Positions 8,934 through 44,086 of a DNA stretch of 64,000 nucleotides are shown here, one piece after another. The DNA lies in NCBI RefSeq assembly GCF_008831285.2, contig NC_045139.1, forward strand, positions 33,577,706 through 33,641,705, read 5' to 3'. The notes beneath the pieces are model-generated. The model saw only the letters and a list, made by a program, of their open reading frames with translations. It had not been told where the DNA came from and did no database searches. This stretch comes from Nymphaea colorata. Lineage: Eukaryota > Streptophyta > Magnoliopsida > Nymphaeales > Nymphaeaceae. Every line of letters starts with the position of its first letter. The first letter of the stretch is position 1. The position numbers were made by a program, and so were the translations under genes.

Positions 8934-11900
8934 TCATGCTTTCAGGTACTTCAAAGCATTCATCAACTTTGTATTCCTCTTCGCCTCCCTGATAGATGCC
9001 AATGAATCAAGAAGTAACTCAATGCTGGTGTGAGCTAGAAGAATCTCAGTGAGGCTTTTCATATTTCCAATGGAATCAGGTAGTTTTCTAAATGATGAAC
9101 AGCCTCTTAGGTCCAGCTTCTCAAGATTGGTCAAGTTGTCAAATCCATCTGGTAATACTACCAACTTGTTGCATCCTTGCAAGGATAACTTCTGTAGGAA
9201 ACCAAGTGATCCCATTGATTTAGGGAGCTCTTTAATATCAACAAAGTTGAAGTAAAGTTCAACTAGATTTTTCATACTACCAACTGAAGGAGGTAACGTT
9301 TTTAAGGACTTACAATAGCTCAGGTCCAACTTCTCAAGTTTCATCAAGTGGCCAAGAGTATCTGGCAAGCTTTTCAGCTTGTTGTACCCAAACATCCATA
9401 ATCCCTTTAGCTCCACAAGAGAGCCTATTGAAGAGGGAAGTTGTACAAGAGCAACATTAGTTAGGTAAAGCTCAGATAGTCTTTTCTTATCTCCAATGGA
9501 GTCAGGCAATGTCTTCAATGATTGACAGTATCTCAAGTTTAGCTTTTCAAGTCTAGGCATTACTCCCAATGAATCAGGCAGCTCTTGCAGATTGCTACAC
9601 CTAAACAAAGATAATTGATGAAGATTTCTGAAAGAACCCATTACACCCCACTGCATTGGCAACATCTGCAGAGATCAGTGCATCTGGAGAGGTCAAGGTT
9701 CTTAAGAGAACTTAAGCTGCATATGACATTAGGCAGCCTCTTTAGTTTAGATCATCAAGACAAGTCTAGCACTGCCAACCTATCAAGCTTCCCAATGGAT
9801 TCATCCACTTGGACCAGCTCATGACAACCCTTAAGACTCAATTTTTCTAATCTGGGTGAGCTTGAAAAGTCAGGTGTCTTCTTGAGATGTAAGCAGCCAC
9901 TAAGAATAAGAACTTTCAACTCATTGAAGACGAGCAAAAAAAGCAGAGGAAGACAATCACAAAGAAGCATGTTTCAAAACGATTCAGCAAATGGACCAAA
10001 TTGTATTGAATTGAATTGCTTTTAAATCAGAAAGTCAGAAGTTTGAATACCTTCAATGCAACCAATATAAAAACGATAAAAGTTTTCATCAAAACTGAAA
10101 ATAAAATAAAATAAATAATAACATGCAAGCCTCAAGCAACTGAAAAGGACTAATTAAATAATATAAAATAAACAAAATTTATCTTTAAACAAAAAATGAC
10201 CTTAATCATGGACACTTTATTCATAGGTTCAATTTTGGTAGGCCTATATATGCTGATTCAAACTGATTTTAACAACGCTGAATATAGAAAAAGGAAGAAA
10301 GAGAGAGAATGAAAGAGAGAGATTTAAACTTAATAATATGAGGAAGTGGACCAATATAGTCATGCAATTTTTTTATTTCTAACATTGTTTTTAGAATTTG
10401 ATCTCATGGAAGTGATCTGGATAATTGAATGAGAAGGAATCCATTATTAAATCATCTTGTTTCAACACATAATATGGAGTTGAGAAATTATAAACAACCA
10501 ATTTTCATCTTAGAAGGCTACTCTTTTTGTCCCAGAGAAAATGAGTAAAGGGTTTATTCATGACAAATGATTATGTTTTAGCGGTTGGGTATATACATAC
10601 ATATGCACACACATACACACACGCCAAGACACCCTGATATCAAGATAAACAGAATATTCAACATGATGATGAAGTAAAAGGTAGCCTAACTTTCTTTCTG
10701 CAATAGCATCTTGAGCTCCAAAGCTGAACAACCCTGCTAAGTGACAGTTCAAGAACTGCAACCTTTTCAAGACTGAAGTCATTGGGGAGTGATTTTAGTG
10801 GACAGCCATGCCACTCTAACCATCTCAACCCTGTAGACATATGTTTGAAATTGCCTTTGAATTCTGCAAAGATGGCACGAAGCAGCCTCAGGTTCATCAT
10901 TCTGGCAAAGGATTTAGTTCTCACACGTCTCTTGCTAAGTAATCCTCTAAGGTCAACTACAATGCCTTCAACATTTCCTGTTCCCTGTGCTTGAAAAAAA
11001 GTTTATCAACATAAGAAAAGTGAAAGACCAAGTTAACTGTGTTTTTCTGATCCCTTACCTTTTGATTATCCAATACATCAAGCACTTCATCTGTAATCCA
11101 TAGCCTGCTACACAAGCCTGGATTGAAAGAGCTATTTTCTCGAACAATAACTTCCCCCAGTTCTTGAAGTTGGTCATGCATTTCCAACCTGTTCTTATCA
11201 ATTTTGACAAGTGACCTGTGCTGCAATACTGTTATTGCTAGAGATGCGTAGAAACCACAACTCTTCAATATATCACTTACCTGATCCTTAGTCGGGCTAA
11301 TGAAAAAACAAGCAAGATCAAGAAATATTTTTTTCTCTTCAGGATCAAGGCTATCATAACTTAGTTTTAGGCTTAGCCTCCTCTGTACGTCATCAATGGG
11401 ATATGCTGTAATCCCTCCAACAGATCTTCCCACTCTTTTACATCCTTCTTACCAAATAGAAATGAACCAAGGACTTCAAGTGCCAAGGGAAGTCCACCAG
11501 CAGCTTTTATAATTTTATCAGAGTTATATGTAATCATTTGCCGGTTGACTCTTTTCAAAGGTATGCAAGGAAAACAGTTCAAGCAATTCAACGCGATTCA
11601 ATTCGCCTGGCTGGTAAAACTCATCCTTGTTCAATTTCTGTACATTTAGAACATGTTTATATCTGGTTGTAATGATGATTCTACTTCCCCCACAAAACCA
11701 ATCTCGAGAACCAACCAAGGCATCAAGTTCATTGTTATGGTCAACATCGTCCAGAACTTTGAGAAGACGCTTAATGTGGAGCCTACTCTTGATTGTTGCA
11801 ATCCCTTGACTGACATCAGTTATCTCAAATTTCTCAAAGTTTAGTATCTAAGAAATAAGTTTCTCCTGCGACAAGATCAATCCCTTGTATTGCTTTGATG

Positions 11901-12166
11901 TCTCTCTAATATCTGAAAGGAAGCAACTGGCATCAAAGCTTTTAAATATTTGGTTAAACACTACTTTTGCCAGCGTGGTCTTGCCGATCCCTCCCATGCC
12001 ATGGATCCCAATCATTTTAACGTCGTCTGTTTCAAGAGATAATAATTTCTTGATATCTTCCACTCGTGACTGAATTCCAACAAGGTGTTCAACAACATCC
12101 ATGGCGGCATGCTTCACTGCCCTTAAATCCCTCTTAACGATTAACTGGATCAACTTGGCCTTATCC
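8934..12166 (-). pseudogene. TIR-type NBS-LRR resistance gene, TIR exon missing, several disruptions
   Basis: Plant intracellular immune receptor relic. The NB-ARC exon begins after an acceptor at 12166: P-loop GMGGIGKTT, kinase-2 VLDDVD (the final D is typical of the TIR class), RNBS-B GSRIIITTR, GLPLAL, then an MHD-like motif (RLEMHD) before the donor at 11059. The second exon starts near 10984 (VEGIVVDLRG). Leucine-rich repeats follow at 9970-9755 and 9665-8934 (repeated LPDSIG and LEKLDL units). Breaks: an in-frame TAG near 11850 where the family has an aspartate; frameshifts near 11520, near 11405, inside the second exon near 10710, and between 9755 and 9665. The post-TIR linker (KAKLIQLIVKRDLR) is present, but no TIR sequence was found upstream, where a CACTA terminus and palindromes lie instead. 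Could it be a sequencing artefact? Five separate breaks make that unlikely. Confidence 0.85.
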
Positions 12167-12627
12167 CTGCAAAGGAAATCAAGAATTCAGTGTGGAAGAA
12201 CTGACAAAAAGGTAGTCTTCTCTTTTGTGTGTCTGTGTGCTCCTATCCTTAAATGGTTGATCACGCCAAGAGTAATAAAATGAAGTTCATCTCCCAGTTC
12301 ATAAACTTGGTCGGCGATTCAACTGAACTCCAAGCTTGAAAAACGAAGAAAAAAATATGCAATGCACTGCAGAAGACCATTAGAAATGTTGGTTGATTAT
12401 TGTCCAAACAAGCTCAGTGAATTGCGACTCTGATATTTGAAATGGGATTCAAATTTTCTTCTTGATAAGTTTCTAGCTTTTTTTTTTCAATATTACAATA
12501 AATTATAACAGTAGAATGACGAAGGCCAGACTTAATTCAGTCTGTTTTCAAGAGTGTGTCCAAATTTCCGCAGATCAACATGAAACATACACTTTTAAGT
12601 TTTCAAAATTTCAGCAGAACTGCATTT
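12167..12627. other. Upstream flank of the NBS-LRR pseudogene
   Basis: A TIR-domain exon would be expected within a short intron distance here on the minus strand. None is recognisable. The sequence is AT-rich with no open frame of note. Confidence 0.55.
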
Positions 12628-16955: not shown

Positions 16956-17617
16956 TCAAGACTGTCGTTCCACCCAAATGAGGATGGTGGCGATGACAAA
17001 AGAGCATCGATCGATGGCGATAGCGGTAGAGGCAGGCAAGCAGACGCTCGAGTCCACCAGTCCTTGTTCTTCTACCATTGGTTGGCCAAGAACCGAGTCT
17101 AGAAAAGCAGTCTCTTCCTCATCCATGTTTTGCATCTGATCCAGAAAACTCACCCCAGGTTCATCTTCTACCACACAACCTGAGGATGACCCAAAATCGA
17201 AGCTGTTGGGATCAAAGGCTATAGCACCACCACCATGCTCGAGCGATGCTCCAAAGTTGTCATTGCTGCTGCTGGTTGTGGAAGGTCTCTGCTGATTATC
17301 TCCTCTGAAAAGGATTTGGATTCTTCCACGGCCACGGGTGGTAGTTTCCTCCCGGAATGACCGTGGTGCTGCTTCATGATGGAGAGGAGTCGTTGGTGCA
17401 CATTCTCTCCGTCATTACCATTGGCATTCGCTAGAGGAGGGTAGACGAAGGTAAAAGGATTCCCTACCTCGTTGAAGCAGACGATGCCGACGGTGGCACC
17501 AGTGAGACGGCAAAGCTGCTGCGCTTTTTTGAAGAGGCCCTTCCTTCTCTTGGAGAAGGTGATGTGCCTCATCCGCCGATCTGGAATCCATCCCATGTTG
17601 GTCCTCCGCTTTCTCAT
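16956..17617 (-). pseudogene. Type I (M-alpha-like) MADS-box gene, frameshifted, shortened MADS domain
   Basis: From the ATG at 17615-17617 the minus strand reads MRKRRTNMGW, then a MADS core HITFSKRRKGLFKKAQQLC followed by VGIVCFNEVGNPFTFVYPP. This resembles plant type I MADS proteins that act in gametophyte or endosperm (family knowledge). The N-terminal arm is short: after TNMG about eight residues of the usual DNA-contacting helix start seem to be missing. The frame stops at 17219. A second frame, open from about 17290 to 16956 (FDPNSFDFGSSSG, then an acidic tail), looks like the true C-terminus, so a single frameshift near 17280-17310 splits the gene. The open frame also extends upstream to 17797 through a short tandem repeat, which is probably not coding. 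It is likely a pseudogene; RNA evidence would decide. Confidence 0.68.
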
Positions 17618-17629
17618 ATCCGTAGCAGC

Positions 17630-17720
17630 GTCACCGGAGCCACACAAGGGAAGCGACGACACAGGGGAAGCGACGACACCGGAGCCACACAGGGGAAGCG
17701 ACGACACCTCCCCTCTGCAA
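17630..17720. repeat. Short tandem repeat upstream of the MADS-box relic
   Basis: About three copies of a unit containing GGAGCCACACAGGGGAAGCG and CGACGACAC, imperfect, just 5' of the MADS start codon on the minus strand. Confidence 0.7.
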
Positions 17721-17770
17721 CTCGACACATATCGTGCAGCCTGTGAACGTGCATGTCTCGGCGTGTAGTG

Positions 17771-17800
17771 AGCTTGACTTGTTTTGAAACAAGTCAAGCT
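17771..17800. repeat. Perfect 14-bp-arm hairpin
   Basis: AGCTTGACTTGTTT, a TG loop, then AAACAAGTCAAGCT. It lies next to AAGCTCGAG-rich sequence that resembles common plant repeat termini. Function unknown. Confidence 0.8.
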
Positions 17801-19001
17801 TAACTAAAACGAAAACGAGTTTGAATCAAGCTCGAGTTGGCTAGACTCATTTTACATTAACCCGATATTCACCGTTAATAGATTCGATGGTTTTCTTGTA
17901 AAGCTTGGTTTTGGCATTGTTGTATTCATGTTGGAAACCAGGCTACTGCGCAAGTTTGATTGTCTCTTTTGGTAAATAGATTGAGTCGTTCGGTGCAACC
18001 CGCTTTTTTTTTTTTTTTTTTCTTTTCGTTTTTCTATCATCTTAGGTAAGCAAACTATGAAGCTTATTTAGATGAATAAATCATAATTCATAACAACAAA
18101 CTATTGCATATATATAACTAATGCTATTGCAAATATTTTTTAATCTTCAGAATTTTGAGAGGGAAATTTTTCCTCTCACTCCTTATAAACCGAACAAAGT
18201 TCAACAAGATATTCTCTTATACTTAAATTGATGAGTTAGGGCGCTAGGAGTATTACAACAATACCATTTAGATCAATCTTTCTTTTCTTTTAACCAAAAG
18301 TAGTCTCATCATACTATCTTTTTTTCATGGAAGTCTCTTTCTCTCTCTTGGCACCTTCTCTTCATCAGATGTGGCTCGTTTTGTGCAAGGGAATGTCCAG
18401 TTTGCCATTCGGTTAAAGCGCCGCTGTCCGTTTGAGGCTGGGTGACTGTGCCGCTCCGTCTTTCCTCTCTCACATCGCCTCTCTTCTTTTTCTGAACATT
18501 GTATTGTATATTTCTTTTTCTTGCTTCTGTTTTTATGGTTTGTTTGCGGTTTGTTTTTGTATGTAGGAGACCTCTTGTTCCCAAATTTTGTTATGTATTC
18601 CCATTTTATCGGCTCTCTCTCTCTTTTTCGTGTATGTGTGTGTGTATATATATATACTTGCAATTGAAGACGTTGTACAATCTTGCCAACTTCTTGTTAT
18701 TTTTTTTTAAATGATATTATGGGGTAAGCCTTGGTAGTTCTGGCTAGCTTAATTACTTTCAAGAAAAAACAACTTTATGTTGAGACCTCATCGATTTGAC
18801 TAGAGCGAGGGGCGGAGGCAGGTGTGGGCAATTGCCCATATAAAGCTACACAAAATTCTTATTTTTATATCGATATTTTCAAAAAAATTTCTTCATTGAC
18901 ATATTGCCATCCCTTGAAAATTAAAAAAAAAAATATAACTAGTGTCCTTCAGCCATAATTTTCTGGCTCTACCAAGCTACACCATAGTTTGTCAAATAGA
19001 T
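17801..19001. other. Intergenic, T-rich, with a dispersed repeat
   Basis: Holds a run of about 20 T at 18005-18025 and a CT/GT/TA microsatellite near 18618-18656. A dispersed repeat lies at about 18800-18990 (GGGGCGGAGGCAGGTGTGGG, then GGGCAATTGCCCATA), with a diverged relative at about 56276-56450. No gene seen. Confidence 0.5.
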
Positions 19002-23946: not shown

Positions 23947-25866
23947 ATGCCGCCTCCTCCAAATAAGTCGGATTCCAATCCCAACAACAGAAATTTTGGT
24001 AAAAATGCGTCCGATGATGCTGCGGAAAAAGAAGAGATCTCCATGAACAACCTATGGGTCGGGAACTTGTCCCCGGATACCACGGATGCAGATCTCAACG
24101 AGGTTTTTGGCAAATTTGGCACGCTTGACAGCGTGTGCTCATATGCTTCTAGAAATTTCGCGTTCATTTACTTCAAGCGCCCGGAGGATGCCAAGAAAGC
24201 CAAGGATACGCTACAGGGCACCACGATTCGTGGGAATCCGATTAAGATTGAGTTTGCACGACCGGTTGGTTATTTCTGTTGCTTTTCAGTTAGATTTTCT
24301 TCTTGGTCGATGGTTGTGGTGGTATCGTTGTACGTCAGGGTGCCAAAACTGTTGTTTATTTTATTTCATTTGTGTGATTCCTTATTTCCCTTTCTCTTGG
24401 TTCCTTATCGATCATTTCGTGCGCGATGAGATTGGCGGCAGAGCACCTGCCTTGCGGTGAGATCCGATTATATAACGTTTTCTTTCAGCAGCACCCACGA
24501 TAATATTGAACTGAACATAGCGTTCGAAGCTTTATATGCAGATTATTCCACAAGCAATGCCATGAGAACAACTTTTTATCCTACTCTGCAATGCTGCAAG
24601 CTTATGGTAGGATAATGGGGTGCTTTAGCATCAAATATGCAACTACAAGACTGAGAAGGTTTACAGACATGCTAGTTGTTGCCTTCATCACTCTTCTTTT
24701 CTTTAAAACTAAGTTTCTCATAAACCGGGAGTTTGGGTTCAGGCTGAATGTGCCGCCTAAGACAAGTTGGTCAATTTGCTTTTGGCTCGATTATTTTAGT
24801 TGATTCATCAGGATTTTGGCTTCTAACGTGTTAAATTTCCCATCCTCTGATCTTACTTGATGAATGAAAAACACAGCAAAATAATGCCCCAAAAATGGGT
24901 TAGGATCTCTCCAAAGTTAATTTCCCGGTGTGGTTTCTATCTAGGTTTGCTGTATGCAATCATGTATCAACATGTAGCACATGAGTGACGTCCAAATGCA
25001 TATGCACGCCCTTATTAGATTGCATCCGACAAAATAAAAGAGCTGACACCACTTGTGATGATACGTTGCCATCTTTTACGTAGTTTCCTTTGTAAAGGTT
25101 TTGAGAATGCTAAACTCTAATTTCCGTAGGATTAGCAGTTGTCAACCTTGGTTACCAATGTCAATAAGTGATATAGAGTCGCACTTAATCCACATCTGAG
25201 CCCTAAATCCTCACCAGACAACGTTGAATTTAACCACCGTCGCCAGCCTATTTCATATAATTCTTCTAGGGTATGAGTGAGCCAGTGACCCCTTTTCTTC
25301 ACCAATTTCATATGACTATAGTTTGAAAAGTATGGATTGACATGTGATTGATGATAGAACATTACGATCTTTGAGTTAAACAAATTTCTACTTTGTATTT
25401 CTGATGTAATTATATATGAGTCTTTTATGTTTTGACCAAAACATCATGCTTTTGTTATATCGTCAAAAGAAGGAAATGAAAAATTTAATTAAGAGCTCTC
25501 TTCTCATGAAGAAGCAAGATAAGCGTTATCCATTCTCATCTTGAATCTTCATGATTGACCTGTATTATATATGTGGTATGAAGTTTAAATCTAGTCGATT
25601 GATTGAATGTGTGCATGAGTGGGTGGATGAACATTCCATCACGTAACGTGAGACTGTCCTTATCACAACCCTCTTTATTTGACCCACCCGAGGGGAAAAG
25701 GTCCCTGAGACACCCCATTTCATCTCGTGATTGAATGTCTGAAACGTTTGCCATCCCTTCATACCAAATCATTTATTCTTGTAAATAAATTTTAACTTTT
25801 TTTTTGGTTGGTTGGATTTACTTGTCATCTAAAGAAAGCAAAAATTCAAAGTAAAGGACTCTCTCT

Positions 25867-25915
<49 letters not shown>

Positions 25916-28900
25916 ACTCACTCACTCTTACACACACACACACACACACGTGCACACATGGAATAGGGTGAAAAAATTAATCAAATCAAAAAGTTGGTAG
26001 TAAACATTTATGAGACATGCATGTTACCCAAAAGTTTTAACACTGAAATTCAATTTCTTGTATCCAAATGTGAGAGATTCCTTTTGCTGATCAAGCCTTA
26101 TATTTCATCCCCAAACAGTTCGTTAATTTTCGTTTATTAGCTAATATCAATTCCATATCTTGCGCAGCTCACACATAGATGCACACACACTAAGCATACA
26201 CTTATTCTAAGTGGATCCAACCGCATAGGAATTTTGGACTGTGTATAAGCTTCATTTTGGGACAGGATATGCAAGTGGTCGTAGGGAGATGAGGATGAGA
26301 TTGGAAGTTTGCAATGAGATGTTTGGCTGGTTGGGAGTGGACACGAGAATGGAGATGAGCTTTGGGTCTTCCATATTCTATTGTTTCATCATGAATATTT
26401 ATCTGATAAATCCACTCTAACATTTCCAGCCTCATATTCAGTCCCATTCCACGTGTGCCTTATCCCTGTCTCCTAGATAAAGGATCATCTGAAAGCTTGC
26501 ATTAAGAATAACAATTGTTTCTCTATGTTGTGGAGAAATTTTACAATTTTTTCTTCTGTTTCTGTATAAGTAGCATATACAAATGCGTAAAATAACTTCT
26601 ATACATAGGTTAGCCATCTTCGTAATAACTAAGAATTACATTACAGGCTTTTGGATGTTAGGGCATCTTGTGTCAATTGGCATTTCAAAATTCAAAGTGC
26701 TAATTTTCCTTTAATGATATGTAAACCTTGCCTTCATTTATATTGCTATAGGTTCCAATTTTTTCTCTACCAATTAGATGCTTCTGCCCAACTGGGAAGA
26801 TTAGGACCGTGTCTTAGTGGTGTCTTAGGTAACCTTCAGTTTACGGGATGCTATAAAAAGACGTGGCAGGATGAAGAAATTTTTTAACTTATTATTTTTC
26901 CTTTAAGGCTGTATTTGAGAATTTTGAAGGCACACAAAACTTATCTAAGATCAGTACATGCTTATCCTAGGTGAAACTTATCTAGGAGAATTTGTCTTTG
27001 AGCAATTTCTTTCTCGGTGGCAACCTGATGAGCGGCAAGGAGTATGACTAAACTGGCTTAGAGTCCACCCAATGGATTTGGAAGTTGATGACTATAGGAG
27101 TCTTTGATTGAATGCAATATCTGAGTTGACGTTTACATGTCCAAGCCAATGAAGCCTCCCAAGTCACAACTGCTCCTTTTCTATGTAAAAGGAATATCCT
27201 GAATCCAATGAAAAAGAGAAACATAACTAAAATGAACAAATGCAATGTCACAGGACTAAATTCAGTGGTTGAAGAATGGTGATGGTGCCTGCAGGGCGAA
27301 CAATAACTTGAAGATGAGCTTCAAAGCCCAGATGCAATTGAGGTGCAAATGCAACAGCAGGGATGGGTTACTATGGTTGTGAGTCACTTGATTTGCCGGA
27401 GTTGGTTGACAGGGGATTGGAAGGTGAAGTTGCTAAGAGGGATAAGTTATATTGGGAACATAATTAGGGTACAGTTTTACTATTTGAATTTCTAAAGTAA
27501 ATTACAATTCAAATCGACTAAAATGTTCTTAGTATCTTCATCCTTATTACGTTACTGGTCTAAAAGATTGATAGCGCTAACTATTAAAACAAATACCCAT
27601 ACTTCAGATATTTTAATTTCCAAAAATCCATAAACCAATGTGTAGGACTGTAGGTTACGATTTTTTTTTTCATAAAATGGGTTGCTTAAGGATTTAAAAG
27701 AAAACATAATGAACTTTTCATATAATTCATATTTATGTGTAGTTCTTCTTTTCAATTTAAGAAAACTTATTGACAGCTGTACTACTGCTGTTTTTAATCA
27801 TTTATATTATCTAGTATTTCATTAAACAACTAAGATAATATAATTGTTATATGATAGACAAGTACTGAGTGTGAATTTTATGTGTTATATTATTGTCAAA
27901 TGTTCACATAGGTGGTTATATGTTGTTTTTATATTGACATTTGTTTATACTTTACATATATTAGGACTTTGGTGTTTCTATTTCTTTTTACTATTTTTAT
28001 GAAATTATTTGGTTGGGAAGCTGATGCTTCAATGCCTCACTTCATGCCAGTTAAAACACTCATCTTGTGTCTGCTCATCACATCTAGCAATTTTGAAACC
28101 CAGTTTAAAAGGCGTGCACGTCTATGGATGCAATTTCTTCCCTCAATCAGACATGGCTTGAGGTGAAAAACACCAATAGTTGTTGGAAGCAGTACGTTTG
28201 GGGACATAAATTAGTATATAAGAATGGTCAACATCACATCCTTTTGTTCCTACTTTTGAATTCTGCAACCTTCTTTTGCAATTTGGAGCTAGAGCTTGGC
28301 TTCTGTGATAAGCAATTGGGGCATTGTCTTTCACTAATTCCTGTTTTTGTTAATTGCTTATTTATCTGTAGACATACGTGGGTGGAGAAAATCTTGCATA
28401 CTGTAGGGTCCATCCTCTGGATTTGAAGTCAGTATAGGGGAACTGGACGGTTAAACGATGCTTATAAAAAAACTATGATTTGTGATAGCTACCAAGGCCA
28501 GTGTGGAACAACTATTTTATGTTCTGTGGATTGATTGGGTCATTTAGCAATTGCATAGTATGCCGTGCCTATCTGTATTATATATAAAAAAAATTCCAAG
28601 TAATTCATTTGATATTTCATGCATGCTATGCTGACTTTGATGTGGCATGTAAACACTGATTGGATTGTCTTACAGTCGTCTGTTTGTTTCACTGGATTGA
28701 TCATCTTATATCTAACCTCTATAATAATGTTGTTATTTCTACTAGTAATTATTGCTATTATTATCAATTTCATGAGGTGGTAGGTTTTTTATTTTCCTAA
28801 TGAGCATCAGGAATGTCTTGCTTATATATGAGCTGGAGGTAGTAGTATCGTCTTTTTTGTGGATATTGACGGAAGAAGTGAATATCTGACAGCAGAAATT

Positions 28901-31900
28901 TAATGGTTCGGGGTTGCTTCTAGCAGCATTGGTTTGATTGTATTCTTATTAGTCTTATTTAAATGTGTAGTTCACTACTATTTTGTGAAATAGCTGTCCC
29001 ATAAAGCATCTGATTCCGGTTTATCTGTTTCATATCTTTAGTTCTGAAGCTTCTGAATGCAATATGCCCTGTAGCTTTCCGAGATGTGAATTCTGTTGCC
29101 ATCTATTCCTGATGCAGATCTATTTAGCTTTCAAGTGCTTTTCGTTACTGACTTTATGACATTGATTAGCTTTTTCCTCCCCTAATTTTCTTTCATTTGT
29201 TTCTTTTCCAGGCTAAGCCAGGGAAGCAACTGTGGATAGGAGGGATAAGCTCTTCTGTTACAAAGGAGCAGCTGGAGAATGAATTTTTGAAGTTTGGAAA
29301 AATTGAAGAATTCAAATTTCTCAGGGATAGAAATTCAGCTCTTGTTGGGTACATTCGGTTGGAAGATGCTGCTGCTGCTTTGAAAAATTTGAATGGAAAA
29401 CGTATTGGTGGTGAAGCCATAAGAGTGGATTTTCTAAGATCTCACCCTTCAAAACGAGTATGCTGTATTTATCCTACTGGGTTCATCTTCTTGCTTACAA
29501 CCAATCATTCAATCCACCAACACCTTTTGTTTTTAATAGCATTTCTGCTGTCCTGACAGGATAGTTGGAGTGATTTTCATGACTCAAGAGATGGCTCCTA
29601 CAGTAACAGGAGAAGTGGGGGCCATCCAGATCCATTATGGATGCCGCCAGAACAGAACTTTCCAGATTCATCTGGCTTCGGGCACAAGAGGTATCAGGTA
29701 AATTTCTTAATGCCCTTATCTCATTAGGGCAATGCCTTAGAAAGTAAGTAAAAAGGAGTGCCGCACCTAGTCGGCCGACAATGTTTGAGCTACTTTAATG
29801 CTTGATGATCCTGCAACAAAATCTTGCTTGTGTGCGGTTTGGACACTTCAATTCTTTAATGAAAACCTGAAAATATAGTTTTTAAGATTCATTGCCATGC
29901 TAATCTTGATCACATCTAACAAGGGTTTTATGTGTGGTATCTGATGTTTGGCTAATATATCTATCAAAAGTCAAACCATGTCTATGCTGGGGCTTTTTTT
30001 GTCTATTGTGTGTTTTTTCATGCTTATGCATGTAGTTTATGAATATGTTTTTCCTGTTAAAATGTTTTAGATCCTTCTGGCACAATTCTGGCTTGTTAGG
30101 GATGGATAGCTAATCGGTTTAGTATTTGTTTCAAATAATTTTGGTGCTGGCTGTCTACCTTTTTTGCATCTACGACTAGGCATATGTGTGAAAGGTTCAA
30201 ATATTAAATGCTATTCTTACATCACTGGATTTGACTCATAAAATGATCAAACTACTCCTTTTCAATTTTTTTTTACATTGACTGCTAGTTAGTTCATTTG
30301 CAGCTTTCCTATATAATTGGACTTTTTAGTATACATTGATCACATTTATTTTTGAGAGTAACTAGCTTTTTGTTATTTTTTTTAGCAATCCCAGGCATTT
30401 GGTGGGGGGCGTAAAGAAGGTCCCCCAAGTAATGTTCTGTGGATAGGATATCCACCATCTGTCCAGATTGATGAACATATGTTGCACAATGCTATGATTC
30501 TGTTCGGTGAAATTGAGCGAATTAAATGCTTTCCAGCCAGACATTACTCCTTTGTTGAATTCAGAAGTGTTGATGAAGCCAGGCGTGCGAAAGAAGGCTT
30601 GCAAGGTCGCCTTTTTAATGATCCCAGGATTCAGATATTGTTCTCTAGCAGTGAAGGGGGTCACGGTGATAGAGATAATCCACCATTTTTTCCAGGCATG
30701 AGGGGTCCTAGGTCAGACATGCTTTACAATGATCCACCATTTGGAGGACCCATGGAAATGTTTGGTCATCCTCGCCCTCCTATTCCAAATAATTTCAGTG
30801 GACCTTTAGGTCCAAATGCTATCCCTGGTGCAAACATGTTGATGCGTCCTTTTCCACCTCAGATTGATCCACTCCTAGCGAACCCTGAGGTTCTTCATTT
30901 AGCAGGCCTTCTCCAGAATCTTCCAGAGGCCAATCTTAACAGTCCAATGGGAACTAACTGGAGAAGGGGATCTCCACCATCAGCTTTAGGAATGCGGCCA
31001 CAGGTTGGTCCTCCTGGTGCTTGGGACAGGGATTCTAGTCCTTTTCAAAGAGAAGCAAAGAGATCTCGCATTGGCAGCCCTTTGCCAATTGACGATGGAT
31101 CATTTCGAGCAAGAGAGGCTAGCGAGCATCACCCTGGGGGTTTTGGGCCACAAAATGAGAGAGGTTTGTTGGGTCCTCCTGTAAATGTTCATAGTCAAGG
31201 TCAGAGTGGTCTTTTACCTGGTCGAGCATCTTCTGTTGATCATCTTGGCCGCAAAGATCACCATTCTTCTGTAGATGATGATTGTTGCTGGCGTGGTGTT
31301 ATTGCTAAAGGTGGGACTCCTGTTTGTAGTGCACGGTGTGTGCCTGTGGGGAAGGGTATAGATGCAACGCTGTAAGTTTTATCTTATTTACTTTTAGTAA
31401 ATGGTCTTTAAAGTTGCTATGATAGATGTTGGCTCAGCATATACACTTTTTTCTCTTACATTTTGCAGTCCTGAAACTGTCAATTAAAGTTTCTATGGTA
31501 GATGTTGGCTCAGCATATACACTTTTTTCTCTTATATTTTGCAGTCCTGAAACTGTCAATTGCTCTGCAAGAACGGGGTTGGATATGCTGACAAAGCACT
31601 ACTCAGAAGCCAGTAGCTTTGATATTGTTTTCTTCTTACCAGATAGTGAAGAAGATTTTGCATCCTACACGGAGTTTCTGAGATATCTGAGTGGAAAAAG
31701 TCGTGCTGGAGTGGCCAAGTTTGATGATGGCACAACATTGTTTCTTGTTCCTCCTTCAGAGTTTTTAACACAGGTTTTGAAGGTGTCTGGTCCTGAACGT
31801 CTTTATGGAGTAGTTTTAAAATTCCCTCAGCAATCTTCCAATTTGCACGTTCAACAGCCACAACACCTTTCTCATATCTCAGGCTCCTCACTACCACCCC

Positions 31901-32973
31901 CACCCCCACCACTGCTTCCACCACAAACCCACTATGTTGATAAGCAGCGAATCCCTTCTGTTCAAGCTGATCATGTCAGGATACCTGGTAAAGAGGATGT
32001 TTCACAAATGAACTACACAAGGGGTTTGAATGAGGAATCTATTGGTGTTCCTGGTGCTGCAAACCCTTCACCTGGTGATCCTCGTACAGCACAGTCAGGT
32101 GCAGTAGATTATGGCAGCAACACAACTGCCTCTCAGGTTTCATTGACACCAGAGCTTATTGCCACATTGACTGCTCTTCTACCTGGGACTGTGCAGTCAT
32201 CAGCTTCAGGTGCTGCGCAGTTGCCCTTGAGCTCAGCATCAAAGCTTCCTTCTTTCTCACCAAGCATGGCATCTGAGAAATCAGTGCCATCTCATGGATG
32301 GCAACATGAACAGTCCATTCTTGGTGGTTCTGTTCCACAATCTAGGGAAGAGCAAGCAAGCCATCCATCTCAGCAGTTAGGACTTCCATATAACAATCAT
32401 TCATCACTTCTCTCACAATATGGAAACCTTGGAAGTGTTGGAAATGGTCCAGAACATTCACAGATAATCAACAGTGCACAAGTTGTGAACCCTAACTTCA
32501 TGCACTCACAAACCAGCATATCAAGTGGGTCTGCTGCTGGCTTTGTAACTCCTTCACAAGGTGGACAGTATGTGGTTCCTCCTGGTCAGCAGTATCAATT
32601 TGAAGCTTCAAATGCTGTCCAGAACTATGGCCTCGTAGGTGCTCAAGATGGCAGTGGAGTCTACCAGTCTTCAGTTCTTCCACAGGCCACCTCTGTCTCA
32701 GCTTCTATTCAGTCACAAATTGGAAGTATGGCTCAATCGCAGGCACAATTAGGAGCTGGTAAACTTAGCACGGAATTATCCGGTCAAATTCAGCAGCTTC
32801 AGTCTATGTCAGCAGGAACAAGTCAGGCTACTTCTGAGAGTGAGGCTGAAAAAAATTTGCGCTACCAGTCAACGCTGCAGTTTGCTGCCAACCTTCTCTT
32901 TCAGATTCAGCAGCAGCAACAGCAGCAGCAACCAAATGCCCCAGTCTTCCAAGGCTCCGGAGAGCAACAATAG
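23947..32973 (+). CDS. FPA: Flowering-time regulator FPA (SPEN family, three RRMs plus SPOC)
   Basis: Nuclear RNA-binding protein of the autonomous flowering pathway. In Arabidopsis FPA promotes proximal poly(A) site choice and silencing of FLC (family knowledge). Exons by hand: 23947-24264, 29212-29457, 29560-29697, 30386-31371, 31545-32973; total 3117 nt, 1038 residues, phase closes. RRM1 lies in exon 1 ([23 protein letters not shown]), RRM2 in exon 2 ([15 protein letters not shown]), RRM3 at the start of exon 4 ([15 protein letters not shown]). The SPOC domain spans the exon 4/5 joint ([20 protein letters not shown], then [14 protein letters not shown]). The tail is Gln/Ser/Pro-rich with a QQQ run near the end. 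The start is the first ATG (MPPPPNKSD); the frame upstream has no ATG. The Arabidopsis protein is about 900 residues, so this one is longer, mainly in the low-complexity tail. Intron 1 is 4.9 kb. The exon 5 acceptor is duplicated; only the second copy keeps the frame open. Confidence 0.93.
24265..29211 (+). other. 4.9-kb first intron of the FPA-type gene
   Basis: Bounded by GT at 24265 and AG at 29211, between the RRM1 and RRM2 exons. It contains a (CT)n(CACT)n(CA)n microsatellite at about 25860-25950 and no recognisable coding sequence. In Arabidopsis, FPA limits its own expression through a poly(A) site in intron 1. An AATAAA hexamer occurs here at 25033-25038, but such motifs are frequent in AT-rich DNA, so equivalence is only a suggestion. 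Confidence 0.75.
25860..25950. repeat. Compound CT/CACT/CA microsatellite
   Basis: A long CT run, several CACT units and a CA run, inside FPA intron 1. Confidence 0.95.
31408..31559 (+). repeat. 76-bp tandem duplication spanning the FPA exon 5 splice acceptor
   Basis: Copies 31408-31483 and 31484-31559 differ at three positions. Each contains the polypyrimidine tract, the acceptor TTTTGCAG and the start of exon 5 (TCCTGAAACTGTCAA). Splicing to the first acceptor (exon start 31469) gives L-P-E-T-V-N then TAA. Splicing to the second (31545) gives the open SPOC-coding exon. Confidence 0.93.
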
Positions 32974-34470
32974 TGGACATCTTCTATCAGGTGTGTATTT
33001 CTATTTTGCTTTTTATTCTTGTAAATATTCTGGGGTATCTATTTCTTCTTAAGATTGCATGCATTAGATTCATTCTCCCTGCTCTGCATGATATTCGATT
33101 CTTGTTATCTTTGAACTGTTACACTGGCTTAACTCTGTTCGTGCTTTTAGGCAAGCGTTTTCTAAATTATATATCCCTATTTTTGTCATCATGATCTTCT
33201 CCCATTCGGTACTCCGAGAGCTTCAGAGTTCAGATTATGCATGATATCACTGTGTCTTAAAGGAGAGGAGGGAATAAAAAAATAAGTAGGAGTTATCTGT
33301 GATGCCATGGTTATTATACAATAAGTATGAATTTTGTATTTTGTATTTTGAGTTGAAGGATGTCTAAAGACTCTAAACTCTAAACCTTCATTATTACATG
33401 CTTGTTAGCATTTTTTATTTAGTTTTATATTTTGTTTAGTTTTTGCAGTGATACAAGTTGAAACAACTAAATTTTTTATAATTTTGCAATGCAGTAGATG
33501 CACTGGAAAATTCAGGATTTTCCTTCGTATATTTTGCATCTTGTCCTATATAATGTTATCCATGGTTCAACAATAAACAAAGCCATTGGTTTCTTGCCAC
33601 ACCCGCACCCGAGTCATGTCGACTCGTCAACCTTTGTGAAGGTTTTGTGTTACTTAGCAAACATGCTACCATCTGTACCTCACATATTCTTTTAACAGGG
33701 AGAAGTCAGAAGAAAATATGTGAGTTTTAAATTTTTAATTGATTAAAGTTGGATAATGTTATGCTACTAACCCTAACTCTATTTTTATGATAAATAAATT
33801 AATTATACTAGTAACTTGTTGCCTGTTAAAAGTGGGGTTAATCTATCATTCAAGATCCATTGTCTCTTCACGATTGATTTGCAAAACTCATTGTCATCAA
33901 AAGGTAATTTGAGCAAAATCTCGCGATATTTACAAGATGAACAAGTAAAATAAAAATATGGGGAAAATCTTTCCAGATTTTGACAATCTCTGAAAAAAAT
34001 GAAGATCTCGTGATTTTTTTATGTTTTTTCACTTTTTAGTTTCTAGTCTCATTTATTTTATTTTTTGTAATTTCGAGGGTTTTTGAAAAATTTCCCAGAT
34101 TTTTTGCTATATTTTCGAAAAAAACTTTACCGATATTTTTTTGAGAATGATAGTTATGAGTTTGAAACAAAATATAGACTTTATTCATAACAATGAATTT
34201 TTCCGTGTGCATATATGCTCCAGCATGCAGGTGTAGGTCTGCAAGTGCATGTACCAGGTATATGTGAGCATGCATACCTTTGAATATGTAAGGTCAATAT
34301 TCTACAAGTACGCTGTGTTCCATTGAAATTCTCTTTGAAAGACATGGACAAGTTTATAGTAATGAATGCACTTGCAATCTTTTTGCATGTTACTTGTCTT
34401 AAACAAAAAGTGTTCATGCATAAAGCTTGTCATCCAGCTAGATCAATCAACTCATTTTCTTGACCCAAAT
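32974..34470. other. 3' flank of the FPA-type gene
   Basis: Likely begins with the 3' untranslated region. A CAG|GTGTGT at about 32989 could be a donor of an untranslated-region intron. No other gene seen. Confidence 0.5.
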
Positions 34471-34477
34471 TGGTATG

Positions 34478-34750
34478 AATAAGAACATATGTATGTGTGC
34501 ATGTATGCTATGTTTGTACTATGTCTTTTTCCTTGACTTCAAGTTAAATTGGGTTAGACGAATGGCTTATCTTGTGTATTTGCCTGTTGTTACTTGAGTT
34601 TGGTATTTGGATAAAATAAGAACATATGTATGTGTGCATGTATGCTATGTTTGTACTATGTCTTTTTCCTTGACTTCAAGTTAAATTGGGTTAGACGAAT
34701 GGCTTATCTTGTGTATTTGCCTGTTGTTACTTGAGTTTGGTATTTGGATA
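34478..34750 (+). repeat. Perfect 137-bp tandem duplication
   Basis: The unit beginning AATAAGAACATATGTATGTG at 34478 is repeated from 34615 with no difference that I can see by eye. The identity points to a very recent event or an assembly duplicate. Confidence 0.9.
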
Positions 34751-35159
34751 ATCATGTGTTCTTGCATGCATTGCCTCATTATTTTATGTTCCTGTTATTT
34801 CTTCTTTCTTTTTGTGTTACCATGTGATATATTCAACAGAAGTTATTCATTTTATGTGGCACAAACATCACCAAGCATGACCAAGGATCTTGGTTTTAAT
34901 GGCTTTGTAACTAAGTTTAGGATAAATTGTAGCTGTAATAGAATGTATCGAATAGAAATTCTGTTAGGCAGGTGACTGTTGTTTACTTGTCAACTTGATC
35001 AGAAGTTATAACTCATTTCAGTGCCCAAACTTTTTCCATGAATGAGATTGTAATTGGGTCTACTTCAACCCATTCGACTTGCAAATTTAGCTTGGAGAAA
35101 AACCACGGGTCTGTTTTAAGATCAAAATTTTGCAAGGAGATGTTCAGTTTGGTTACACT

Positions 35160-41512: not shown

Positions 41513-42980
41513 AATGGTTTTCAATTAAAGAGAAAAAAAGTTCTATAATGAGATGGGCCTTAGAATGAGCAGTCAAAGTTTGATTCTCATGGGTGCCACT
41601 CAGTAGTGGGCCAGAGTGGCTCGTGCCGCGGAGGGCGGGGTCAAACTCAATACACCCTCAAGCATCTAATCTGCTCAGATTGAAATGGGGAGCATTTCCT
41701 GTTTAGGATTAAGTTATCCGTAGACCTTTCTAAAAGAAAAAAGGGGGAAAAGGAAGTTCAGTATATGCTTGATAAAGGTTCGAACTGAAAAACCTTCAAA
41801 TTGGAAAAACTCCAGGAATCAAAACCCCACTCAAATTAAACCACTGGTTCATATATTTTGTGATACGAAATACTGGATAAATGAGGTTAACAAATGAGAG
41901 TTTACTCTCTATTGTCCCTTTTTGCTGAAAGATGGCAACTGGCAAATGAACAGTTGCACCATCAAACAGGTCCGTTTCTTCTCACTGTTCCGAAAGATGG
42001 AAACACATAGGCTTCTTTCTTTCCTTCACTTTCTTCCTCTCTTCCGAGTGCTAGTGTATGGCATGATCACTAGCCTGAGATTTGCATATTTACAGTATTA
42101 AGACGTATGGACCATCAATGCATTATTACCCACAAGAGTAAGAATTTCGACTACGCCATGATAAGAACATGACTGTGATTAGCATACTGGTTCTGTTTCA
42201 GGACAGGGAGTTATAGGCAAAGTGTTATCAAAGTATGTTTCAGGATCCAGTGTTATCAAAATATGGGTTAACAGTTGAAGTTGGTAGTGCAATTTCATCT
42301 AGAAAAACAAATATTCCAGAGTATCTGGAACAGGTAGCCACCCGCAGAATGCTGTTGGTGCTGCTCTATTGTTTTTTCAGCAGAAGATGTAAAGGGTCAT
42401 CGAGCTTGCTTTGGCAAGTCCATTCAAAACCACCTGAGACCAAGAAAGAGCTCTCGAAAAGATTGTGCCATTTCTCAAAAATTTCAAAAATTTGAAATTT
42501 ATGCTTTGCTGATATAGACGAAAACCATATGTTCATCTCAATTCAGACCTCCCAAAAGGAAATCCGTTCTCATCCACATTGAGCAGTACAGAATTCTACT
42601 CCATACACTTGGTCCACTTTTTCGTTCAATTCATGGCCGACCTTCCAATATTGAGACCACTAGCTCTTCAACTTTCTTACGTGCTATGATGTTGCCCAGA
42701 ACTTTGGCCAAAATGGCAGGCACCATTTTCTTCCTCAAGCCAAGAAAAGACAGTTGATTCCCCCGTTGAGGAGCCACCGTGCAGGTTCACCCATAAGAAA
42801 CACAGTTTTTAAATGTAGCCAACCTCCCCAAATGCTGAAAACTGATGGAAACAGGGAAAAGTGCTAAAATCTACAGTCCTCAATTATTTGGAAAAGTTCA
42901 CCACTGTTCTTCCTTGACCACCAAAAGCTAATCTATATCTACAGAGTCACGTCCCCACACACTCTACTTCCGGATCCTCA
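41513..42980. other. Intergenic, upstream of serine acetyltransferase
   Basis: No gene supported. An open frame at 42235-42495 lacks any signature. The last few hundred bases are presumably the promoter region of the downstream gene. Confidence 0.5.
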
Positions 42981-42985
42981 GACTC

Positions 42986-42996
42986 CTCTATATTAA
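42986..42996 (+). promoter_or_regulatory. Probable TATA box of the serine acetyltransferase gene
   Basis: CTCTATATTAAGC, about 50 bases upstream of the ATG at 43040. It implies a very short leader if used. Confidence 0.5.
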
Positions 42997-43039
42997 GCTT
43001 CCACATACAAGTTCCTTCACAAGACCTTTGCATCCCTCC

Positions 43040-44086
43040 ATGACTTCTCTTACCCTTTCCCCCTCCATCCCAGAGTCATCATCCTTCCGCAGCAAACTCT
43101 CTAATAACAAGAAATTTCACAGACGAATGACAGCATGCATAGAGGGCTCGACTTTGAAAGTTGGCACCAGACGACTATCATTCAACATGGATCGATTTTC
43201 GACTACCAATCAAACAGCGGTTTACCAGCTTGTTGAGCTCTCAAAGCCCTTGCAACACCCAAGAATCTGTGAGAGGGATGAGCTATGGCTGAAGATGAGG
43301 GAGGAGGCGATGAGGGATGTGGAGCAAGAGCCGGTGCTGGAGACGTACTACAGAAATGCTATACTCTCACATGACTCACTAGAAGCAGCCCTGGCCGGCC
43401 ATCTGGGAAACAAGCTCTCCATGACTTGTCTGCCGGGTTCCAGCCTAGCCAGGGTCTTCTTATGGGCGTTCCTTGAAGAGAGCACCATCCGGTCTGCGGT
43501 CCGGGAGGACCTGAAGGCAGTCAAGGAGAGGGACCCAGCCTGTGTAAGTTATGTTCAGTGCCTGCTCAACTTCAAGGGCTTCCTAGCAGTTCAGGCTCAC
43601 CGGGTGGCTCACAGTCTATGGACCAAGGGCCGGGCACCGCTGGCCTTGGTGATACAGAACCGGGTTTCGGAGGCCTTCGCCGTGGACATACATCCTGGTG
43701 CAAGGGTAGGCAAGGGAGTACTGCTGGACCATGCTACCGGGGTCGTGATCGGAGAGACTGCCGTCATTGGCGACAACGTGTCCATCTTGCACAATGTGAC
43801 GTTAGGAGGCACCGGCAAGGCCGGCGGCGACCGGCACCCGAAGATCGGAGATGGGGTGCTGGTGGGTGCTGGTACGCATATCCTTGGTAATGTACAGGTA
43901 GGTGCGGGGGCCAAGGTCGGGGCTGGCTCAGTGGTGCTGAAAGAGGTCCCGGCCAGGACCACTGCAGTGGGGAACCCGGCGAGGTTGGTTGGTGGAAGGG
44001 ACAACCCCGTTAAGTTGACCAACATTCCTAGCTTGACTATGGACCATACCTCCTTCGTATCCGACTGCTCGGATGATGTAATCTGA
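43040..44086 (+). CDS. SERAT: Serine O-acetyltransferase (SERAT), intronless, probably organellar
   Basis: Transfers acetyl from acetyl-CoA to L-serine, giving O-acetylserine, the committed step of cysteine synthesis. It binds O-acetylserine(thiol)lyase in the cysteine synthase complex. 348 residues in a single exon. Residues about 1-50 are Ser/Arg-rich with few acids (MTSLTLSPSIPESSSFRSK), like a plastid or mitochondrial transit peptide. An internal MTACIEG could serve as a shorter cytosolic start. The alpha-helical N-domain follows (LWLKMREEA, DPACVSYVQCLLNFKGF), then the left-handed beta-helix with VDIHPGARVGKG, LLDHATGVVIGETAVIGDN, HNVTLGGTGK and GDRHPKIGDG. The His in LDHATG and the Asp-Pro-Ala stretch match the catalytic region. 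The C-terminus ends in Ile, needed for docking to the lyase. The penultimate segment is CSDDVI, where the Arabidopsis mitochondrial enzyme has WSDYVI. No operon-like context applies. The stop is TGA at 44084-44086. Confidence 0.95.
   Translation: MTSLTLSPSIPESSSFRSKLSNNKKFHRRMTACIEGSTLKVGTRRLSFNMDRFSTTNQTAVYQLVELSKPLQHPRICERDELWLKMREEAMRDVEQEPVLETYYRNAILSHDSLEAALAGHLGNKLSMTCLPGSSLARVFLWAFLEESTIRSAVREDLKAVKERDPACVSYVQCLLNFKGFLAVQAHRVAHSLWTKGRAPLALVIQNRVSEAFAVDIHPGARVGKGVLLDHATGVVIGETAVIGDNVSILHNVTLGGTGKAGGDRHPKIGDGVLVGAGTHILGNVQVGAGAKVGAGSVVLKEVPARTTAVGNPARLVGGRDNPVKLTNIPSLTMDHTSFVSDCSDDVI

Follow-up and report, generated by a model that had tools for sequence, protein, structure and literature searches.

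Two near-identical splice acceptors in the SPOC intron of a Nymphaea colorata FPA gene: a tandem duplication with a probable decoy site

Tandem duplication of an acceptor region has a described counterpart in the potato RdRp gene PGSC0003DMG402000361, where a duplication across an intron-exon boundary is reported to have given rise to a new intron, documented by 106 RNA-Seq reads (PMC4974935). Membership of the intron-gain class, as presented in that study, calls for a spliced new intron and does not require that the protein be kept. Choice between acceptors is itself a familiar event in plants: in one Arabidopsis RT-PCR panel, alternative 3' sites outnumber every other class, at 135 of 288 events (PMC3526319), and in NAGNAG tandem acceptors two sites compete at a spacing of 3 nt (PMC3250501). 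The FPA gene of Arabidopsis is reported to regulate its own expression by premature polyadenylation within intron 1 (PMC8116057).

The locus described here lies in a 64,000-nt stretch of the N. colorata genome (hereafter, the window). As in the potato gene, the duplication copies the branch site, the pyrimidine tract, the CAG and the first exon bases. In potato, however, a GTAAG donor derived from the upstream exon segment allowed a new intron to be spliced (PMC4974935), whereas in the window gene the two acceptors of a single intron are expected to be alternatives. Like plant alternative 3' splice site events, the locus combines one donor with two acceptors, one of which leads to an early stop, but the extra site is putative and duplication-born rather than a pre-existing cryptic site. 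As at NAGNAG sites, two acceptors would compete; here they are 76 nt apart and each has upstream signals of its own. The parallel with Arabidopsis FPA is one of gene family and of RNA processing as a potential limit on full-length FPA, the intron and the mechanism being different. No literature on this FPA duplication was found among the matches listed from open-licence papers.

Table. Features of the FPA gene model and of its duplicated acceptor region (positions within the window)
Feature	Position	Strand	Remarks
FPA coding exon 1	23947..24264	+	ATG at 23947; RRM residues 36-100
FPA coding exon 2	29212..29457	+	RRM around residues 117-178
FPA coding exon 3	29560..29697	+	spliced translation
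FPA coding exon 4	30386..31371	+	RRM around residues 261-322; SPOC start
SPOC intron donor GTAAGT	31372..31377	+	shared by the 97-nt and 173-nt introns
Copy 1 of 76-bp unit	31408..31483	+	branch-point-like CTCAG, pyrimidine tract, GCAG, 15 nt of exon
Acceptor 1 (CAG)	31466..31468	+	exon start 31469; 97-nt intron; exon 76 nt longer, out of frame
Copy 2 of 76-bp unit	31484..31559	+	runs on into the real exon; TRF, repeat finder
TAA stop after acceptor 1	31485..31487	+	568-aa product, spliced translation
Acceptor 2 (CAG)	31542..31544	+	exon start 31545; 173-nt intron; 1038 aa
FPA coding exon 5	31545..32973	+	remaining SPOC, C-terminal tail; stop 32971-32973

The gene model is conceptual and was predicted from the DNA alone; it comprises five coding exons, joined across GT-AG introns, and a protein of 1038 aa (Table). 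Pfam RRM_1 matches the N-terminal part in three stretches (E 5e-39) and Pfam SPOC matches residues 531-655 (E 3.3e-26). Alignment of the SPOC domain with that of Arabidopsis FPA (5KXF; E 4e-62) runs ungapped over the exon junction and has 95 identical residues out of 125 (76.0%); 5KXF is the only PDB sequence matching it at E up to 0.001. A genome search for SPOC domains gave four matches (6 candidates scored), among which the window gene is the best. A second FPA-like gene (L023, C3:26504601-26507873) combines SPOC with an RRM-like stretch recognised by eye; its SPOC is 56.3% identical to that of Arabidopsis FPA and 60.3% to that of the window gene. Since the two genes stand at 76.0% and 56.3% to the Arabidopsis domain, the window gene is, by this measure, the FPA orthologue and the better one of the two, L023 being by the same comparison a more distant paralogue. 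The matches on C4 and C6 are short and were judged, by eye on their translations, to be other SPOC proteins. No intronless FPA retrocopy was apparent among the four SPOC profile matches, which start at profile positions 25, 28, 31 and 40 (6 candidates scored); the spliced protein matches from about position 6, and a retrocopy would be expected to do likewise.

The duplication spans the SPOC-intron acceptor. Tandem Repeats Finder (TRF) reports a two-copy array at 31408-31561 (period 76, 2.0 copies, 96% match) devoid of indels, and a repeat finder delimits two adjoining head-to-tail units, likewise 96% identical. Identity at 73 of 76 bases between adjacent copies is far beyond chance. Each unit is made up of 61 nt of intron end followed by 15 nt of exon, which places the duplication across an intron-exon boundary, a feature by which tandem-duplication intron gain is recognised. 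The three differences between the copies (31416/31492, G/T; 31422/31498, A/G; 31459/31535, C/T) all fall within the intronic part. TRF extends the array by TT, two further matching bases past copy 2, possibly a 2-bp microhomology. The 152-bp stretch has a single match in the assembly (one candidate found and scored, in a search that skips very common words); with this one match, the idea that the unit came from a dispersed or mobile element was rejected.

The two acceptors lead to very different products. Splicing to acceptor 2 yields the 1038-aa protein, open throughout, with its three RRM stretches and SPOC. Splicing to acceptor 1 adds L-P-E-T-V-N before the TAA, and the product breaks off after 38 residues of the Pfam SPOC match; this stop lies 1486 nt ahead of the normal one and is premature and distant from the regular 3' end. 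When nine AG acceptors (exon starts 31422-31599) were tried with the donor at 31372, only two kept the frame, with exon starts at 31545 (1038 aa) and 31572 (1029 aa). A putative donor in the 3' UTR (CAG/GTGTGT, donor at 32991) would, if real, possibly add a second feature favouring nonsense-mediated decay (NMD) of the acceptor-1 message; in Arabidopsis FPA, distal poly(A) sites are described in the terminal intron and exon (PMC8116057). Mutation of two SPOC surface residues is reported not to disrupt FPA function (PMC4981400), so that damage to SPOC may leave a product with some activity, but truncation by acceptor 1 is far more severe than such a change. Much of this anatomy had been proposed in the first-pass annotation, which saw in FPA a 76-bp tandem duplication (three differences) copying the pyrimidine tract, the CAG and the first exon bases. 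Both repeat programs place that duplication exactly to the base, and the domain matches bear out the gene's identity. Spliced translations likewise agree with its statements that the first acceptor leads to TAA after six codons and that the second keeps the frame, and the truncated, NMD-prone layout ascribed to the first acceptor is present, the stop within SPOC being followed by a long former coding sequence.

What distinguishes the acceptors lies mostly outside their own signals. Within the 25 nt ending at AG they differ at one base (C in acceptor 1 and T in acceptor 2, at -10), and both are preceded by CTCAG, the A of which is 32 nt ahead of the G of AG. The 76 nt upstream of each have a GC content of 0.32-0.33; in the 76 nt downstream, GC is 0.33 for acceptor 1 and 0.46 for acceptor 2. 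Plant acceptors are favoured at a step from AU-rich to GC-richer sequence. A direct paper testing this rule for plant acceptors was not found in the open-licence literature searched, while composition differences between introns and exons are held to matter for splicing (PMC4974935). On concealment of one acceptor by RNA structure, folds computed in three contexts pointed in opposite directions, with no consistent difference in accessibility. In classical tests with duplicated sites, carried out in animal systems, the donor-proximal site is favoured. Scanning for AG is described as proceeding 5' to 3' from the branch point (PMC10946897); with the upstream branch point selected, it would favour acceptor 1. 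As the gene is otherwise intact, we place most weight on acceptor 2 as the site that is presumably used.

Altogether, we think it likely that the array is a tandem duplication left by break repair, that acceptor 2 is the productive site and that acceptor 1 is a tolerated decoy, with no regulatory role needed. Error-prone repair of a DNA break would have produced the two-copy array at the SPOC intron; PMC8355091 ascribes small tandem duplications, mainly in mammalian cells, to break repair. Both copies have a branch-point-like CTCAG, a pyrimidine tract and a GCAG of their own, and the choice of acceptor is therefore probably made at recognition of branch point and pyrimidine tract, not during later AG scanning. 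The spliceosome would settle mostly on acceptor 2, which, of the two, is the sole FPA-making site and lies where AU-rich intron gives way to GC-richer exon; in support, its product runs gapless through SPOC against both 5KXF and the second FPA-like gene. Any use of acceptor 1 would give the 568-aa product, its message, with a stop about 1.5 kb early, being likely cleared by NMD; this NMD-prone fraction is probably minor. Against the decoy interpretation weigh the near identity of the acceptors and the nearness of acceptor 1 to the donor, from which use of the first site could be predicted.

How far the arrangement calls for selection was judged from the frequency of such events. The sample amounted to 264 kb, all from one of the 783 contigs: the window itself together with 20 pieces of 10 kb, of which two flank the window. 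It contains 17 tandem duplications in two copies with unit lengths of 40-200 bp, 9 of them at a match of at least 90%. Seven of the 17 lie in the window, which is richer in them than the other 200 kb, and 0.26-0.49% of positions in the sample fall inside such a duplicated unit. A gene carries about four introns. The N. colorata genome is reported to hold 31,580 genes (PMC7015852). From these figures and the share of duplicated positions, several hundred acceptors would be hit genome-wide without any selection. A simple simulation of acceptor-spanning duplications, in which unit sizes were random and letters came from the SPOC intron, left acceptor 1 productive in 8.6% of cases, the full protein being lost through it in about 91%; by default, then, acceptor 1 is followed by a stop, which is no sign of design. 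We conclude that the duplication is real and of a common mutational kind, and that its anatomy is explained without selection.

These data bear directly on the suggestion, made in the first-pass annotation, that the duplication is a new regulatory or dosage switch. In the form weighed here, the acceptors would compete and set a fixed or regulated fraction of FPA message to be truncated and degraded, the arrangement having been kept by selection. Intact signals at both acceptors and the truncated, NMD-prone first product agree with such a role, as does autoregulation of Arabidopsis FPA, albeit by intron-1 polyadenylation. But a random acceptor-spanning duplication would produce just this anatomy, the duplication is absent from the second FPA-like gene, and selection would have to be judged from one genome and three substitutions. 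With base rate and default outcome accounting for the anatomy, the switch is not supported, and we regard it as unlikely. The self-control of FPA through RNA processing on which the suggestion drew is indeed published for Arabidopsis; it operates through intron-1 polyadenylation, not at the SPOC intron (PMC8116057). In Arabidopsis the autoregulatory poly(A) site lies in intron 1, so that any dosage control in the window gene would best be sought first in the corresponding intron (4947 nt, 24265-29211), which ends 2.2 kb upstream of the duplication.

It is equally doubtful that the gene is a weakened allele, in which acceptor 1, being nearer the donor, serves as the main site and little full-length FPA is made, the gene drifting to loss or being covered for by the second gene. 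The proximity of acceptor 1, the near-identical signals and the existence of a second FPA-like gene speak for it. An FPA frame open over 1038 aa and a SPOC 76% identical to that of Arabidopsis argue, however, against long relaxation, although the duplication may be too young for relaxation to show; moreover, the potential substitute is the more distant paralogue (56.3% to the Arabidopsis SPOC). We give little credence to the proposal that the duplication is recent and supplied FPA with an additional 3' splice module complete in itself, so that the ratio of the near-identical acceptors sets the fraction lost to NMD and adds dosage control at the SPOC intron beside autoregulation in intron 1; if it were true, and if FPA or a splicing factor biased acceptor choice, the locus would be a newly born feedback loop. 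An assembly artefact, with one copy in the real genome, seems very improbable: assemblers can create short false duplications, but the copies differ at three bases and occupy a single place in the assembly; the reading frame is neutral here, as a one-copy state would code equally well. Intron gain in the manner of potato RdRp, with a mini-exon from acceptor 1 and a second intron running from a donor in or just past the copy-1 exon end to acceptor 2, has the same boundary-spanning geometry (PMC4974935) yet is hardly credible because no in-frame GT donor joins acceptors 1 and 2 (0 of 3 such joins, and 1 of 27 mini-exon combinations overall, GT donors only), the sole in-frame case pairing a weak-looking GTCAAT donor with a third AG (exon from 31597) rather than acceptor 2, and a potato-like GTAAG donor being absent.

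The second FPA-like gene also helps to polarise the change. Its SPOC intron is phase-2, like that of the window gene, measures 296 nt and has one GCAG acceptor at the equivalent place; no tandem repeat was found across the 3273 bases of this gene examined. The unduplicated state of L023 and the 4% divergence between the copies both point to the branch of the window gene as the most likely place of origin of the duplication, which would be a derived state. At assumed substitution rates between 1.5e-9 and 7e-9 per site per year, the Jukes-Cantor distance between copies (0.041) translates into 2.9-13.5 My; as the intervals span 0.6 to 38 My, it is of little use for dating.

The surroundings of the gene present further features. 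A perfect two-copy tandem duplication of 137 bp (TRF) occupies 34478-34751, 1.5 kb past the FPA stop, and four duplications cluster within about 4.3 kb, with units at 31408 (76 bp), 34478 (137 bp), 35173 (26 bp) and 35515 (86 bp). An ORF with a MADS-box (SRF-TF) domain lies at 17219-17803 on the minus strand, and a single open frame with serine acetyltransferase domains at 42932-44086 on the plus strand. Pieces of an NLR-type resistance gene (LRR, NB-ARC) are found on the minus strand at 8934-12186, about 12 kb from FPA. Arabidopsis FPA is reported to control NLR transcripts (PMC8116057); the presence of NLR pieces near FPA is probably a coincidence.

The locus offers a natural test of acceptor choice in plants, where near-identical signals differ mainly in their distance from the donor and in the sequence downstream. 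If acceptor 1 is used at all, a common small mutation would impose a constant tax on a flowering-time regulator, one that the gene tolerates.
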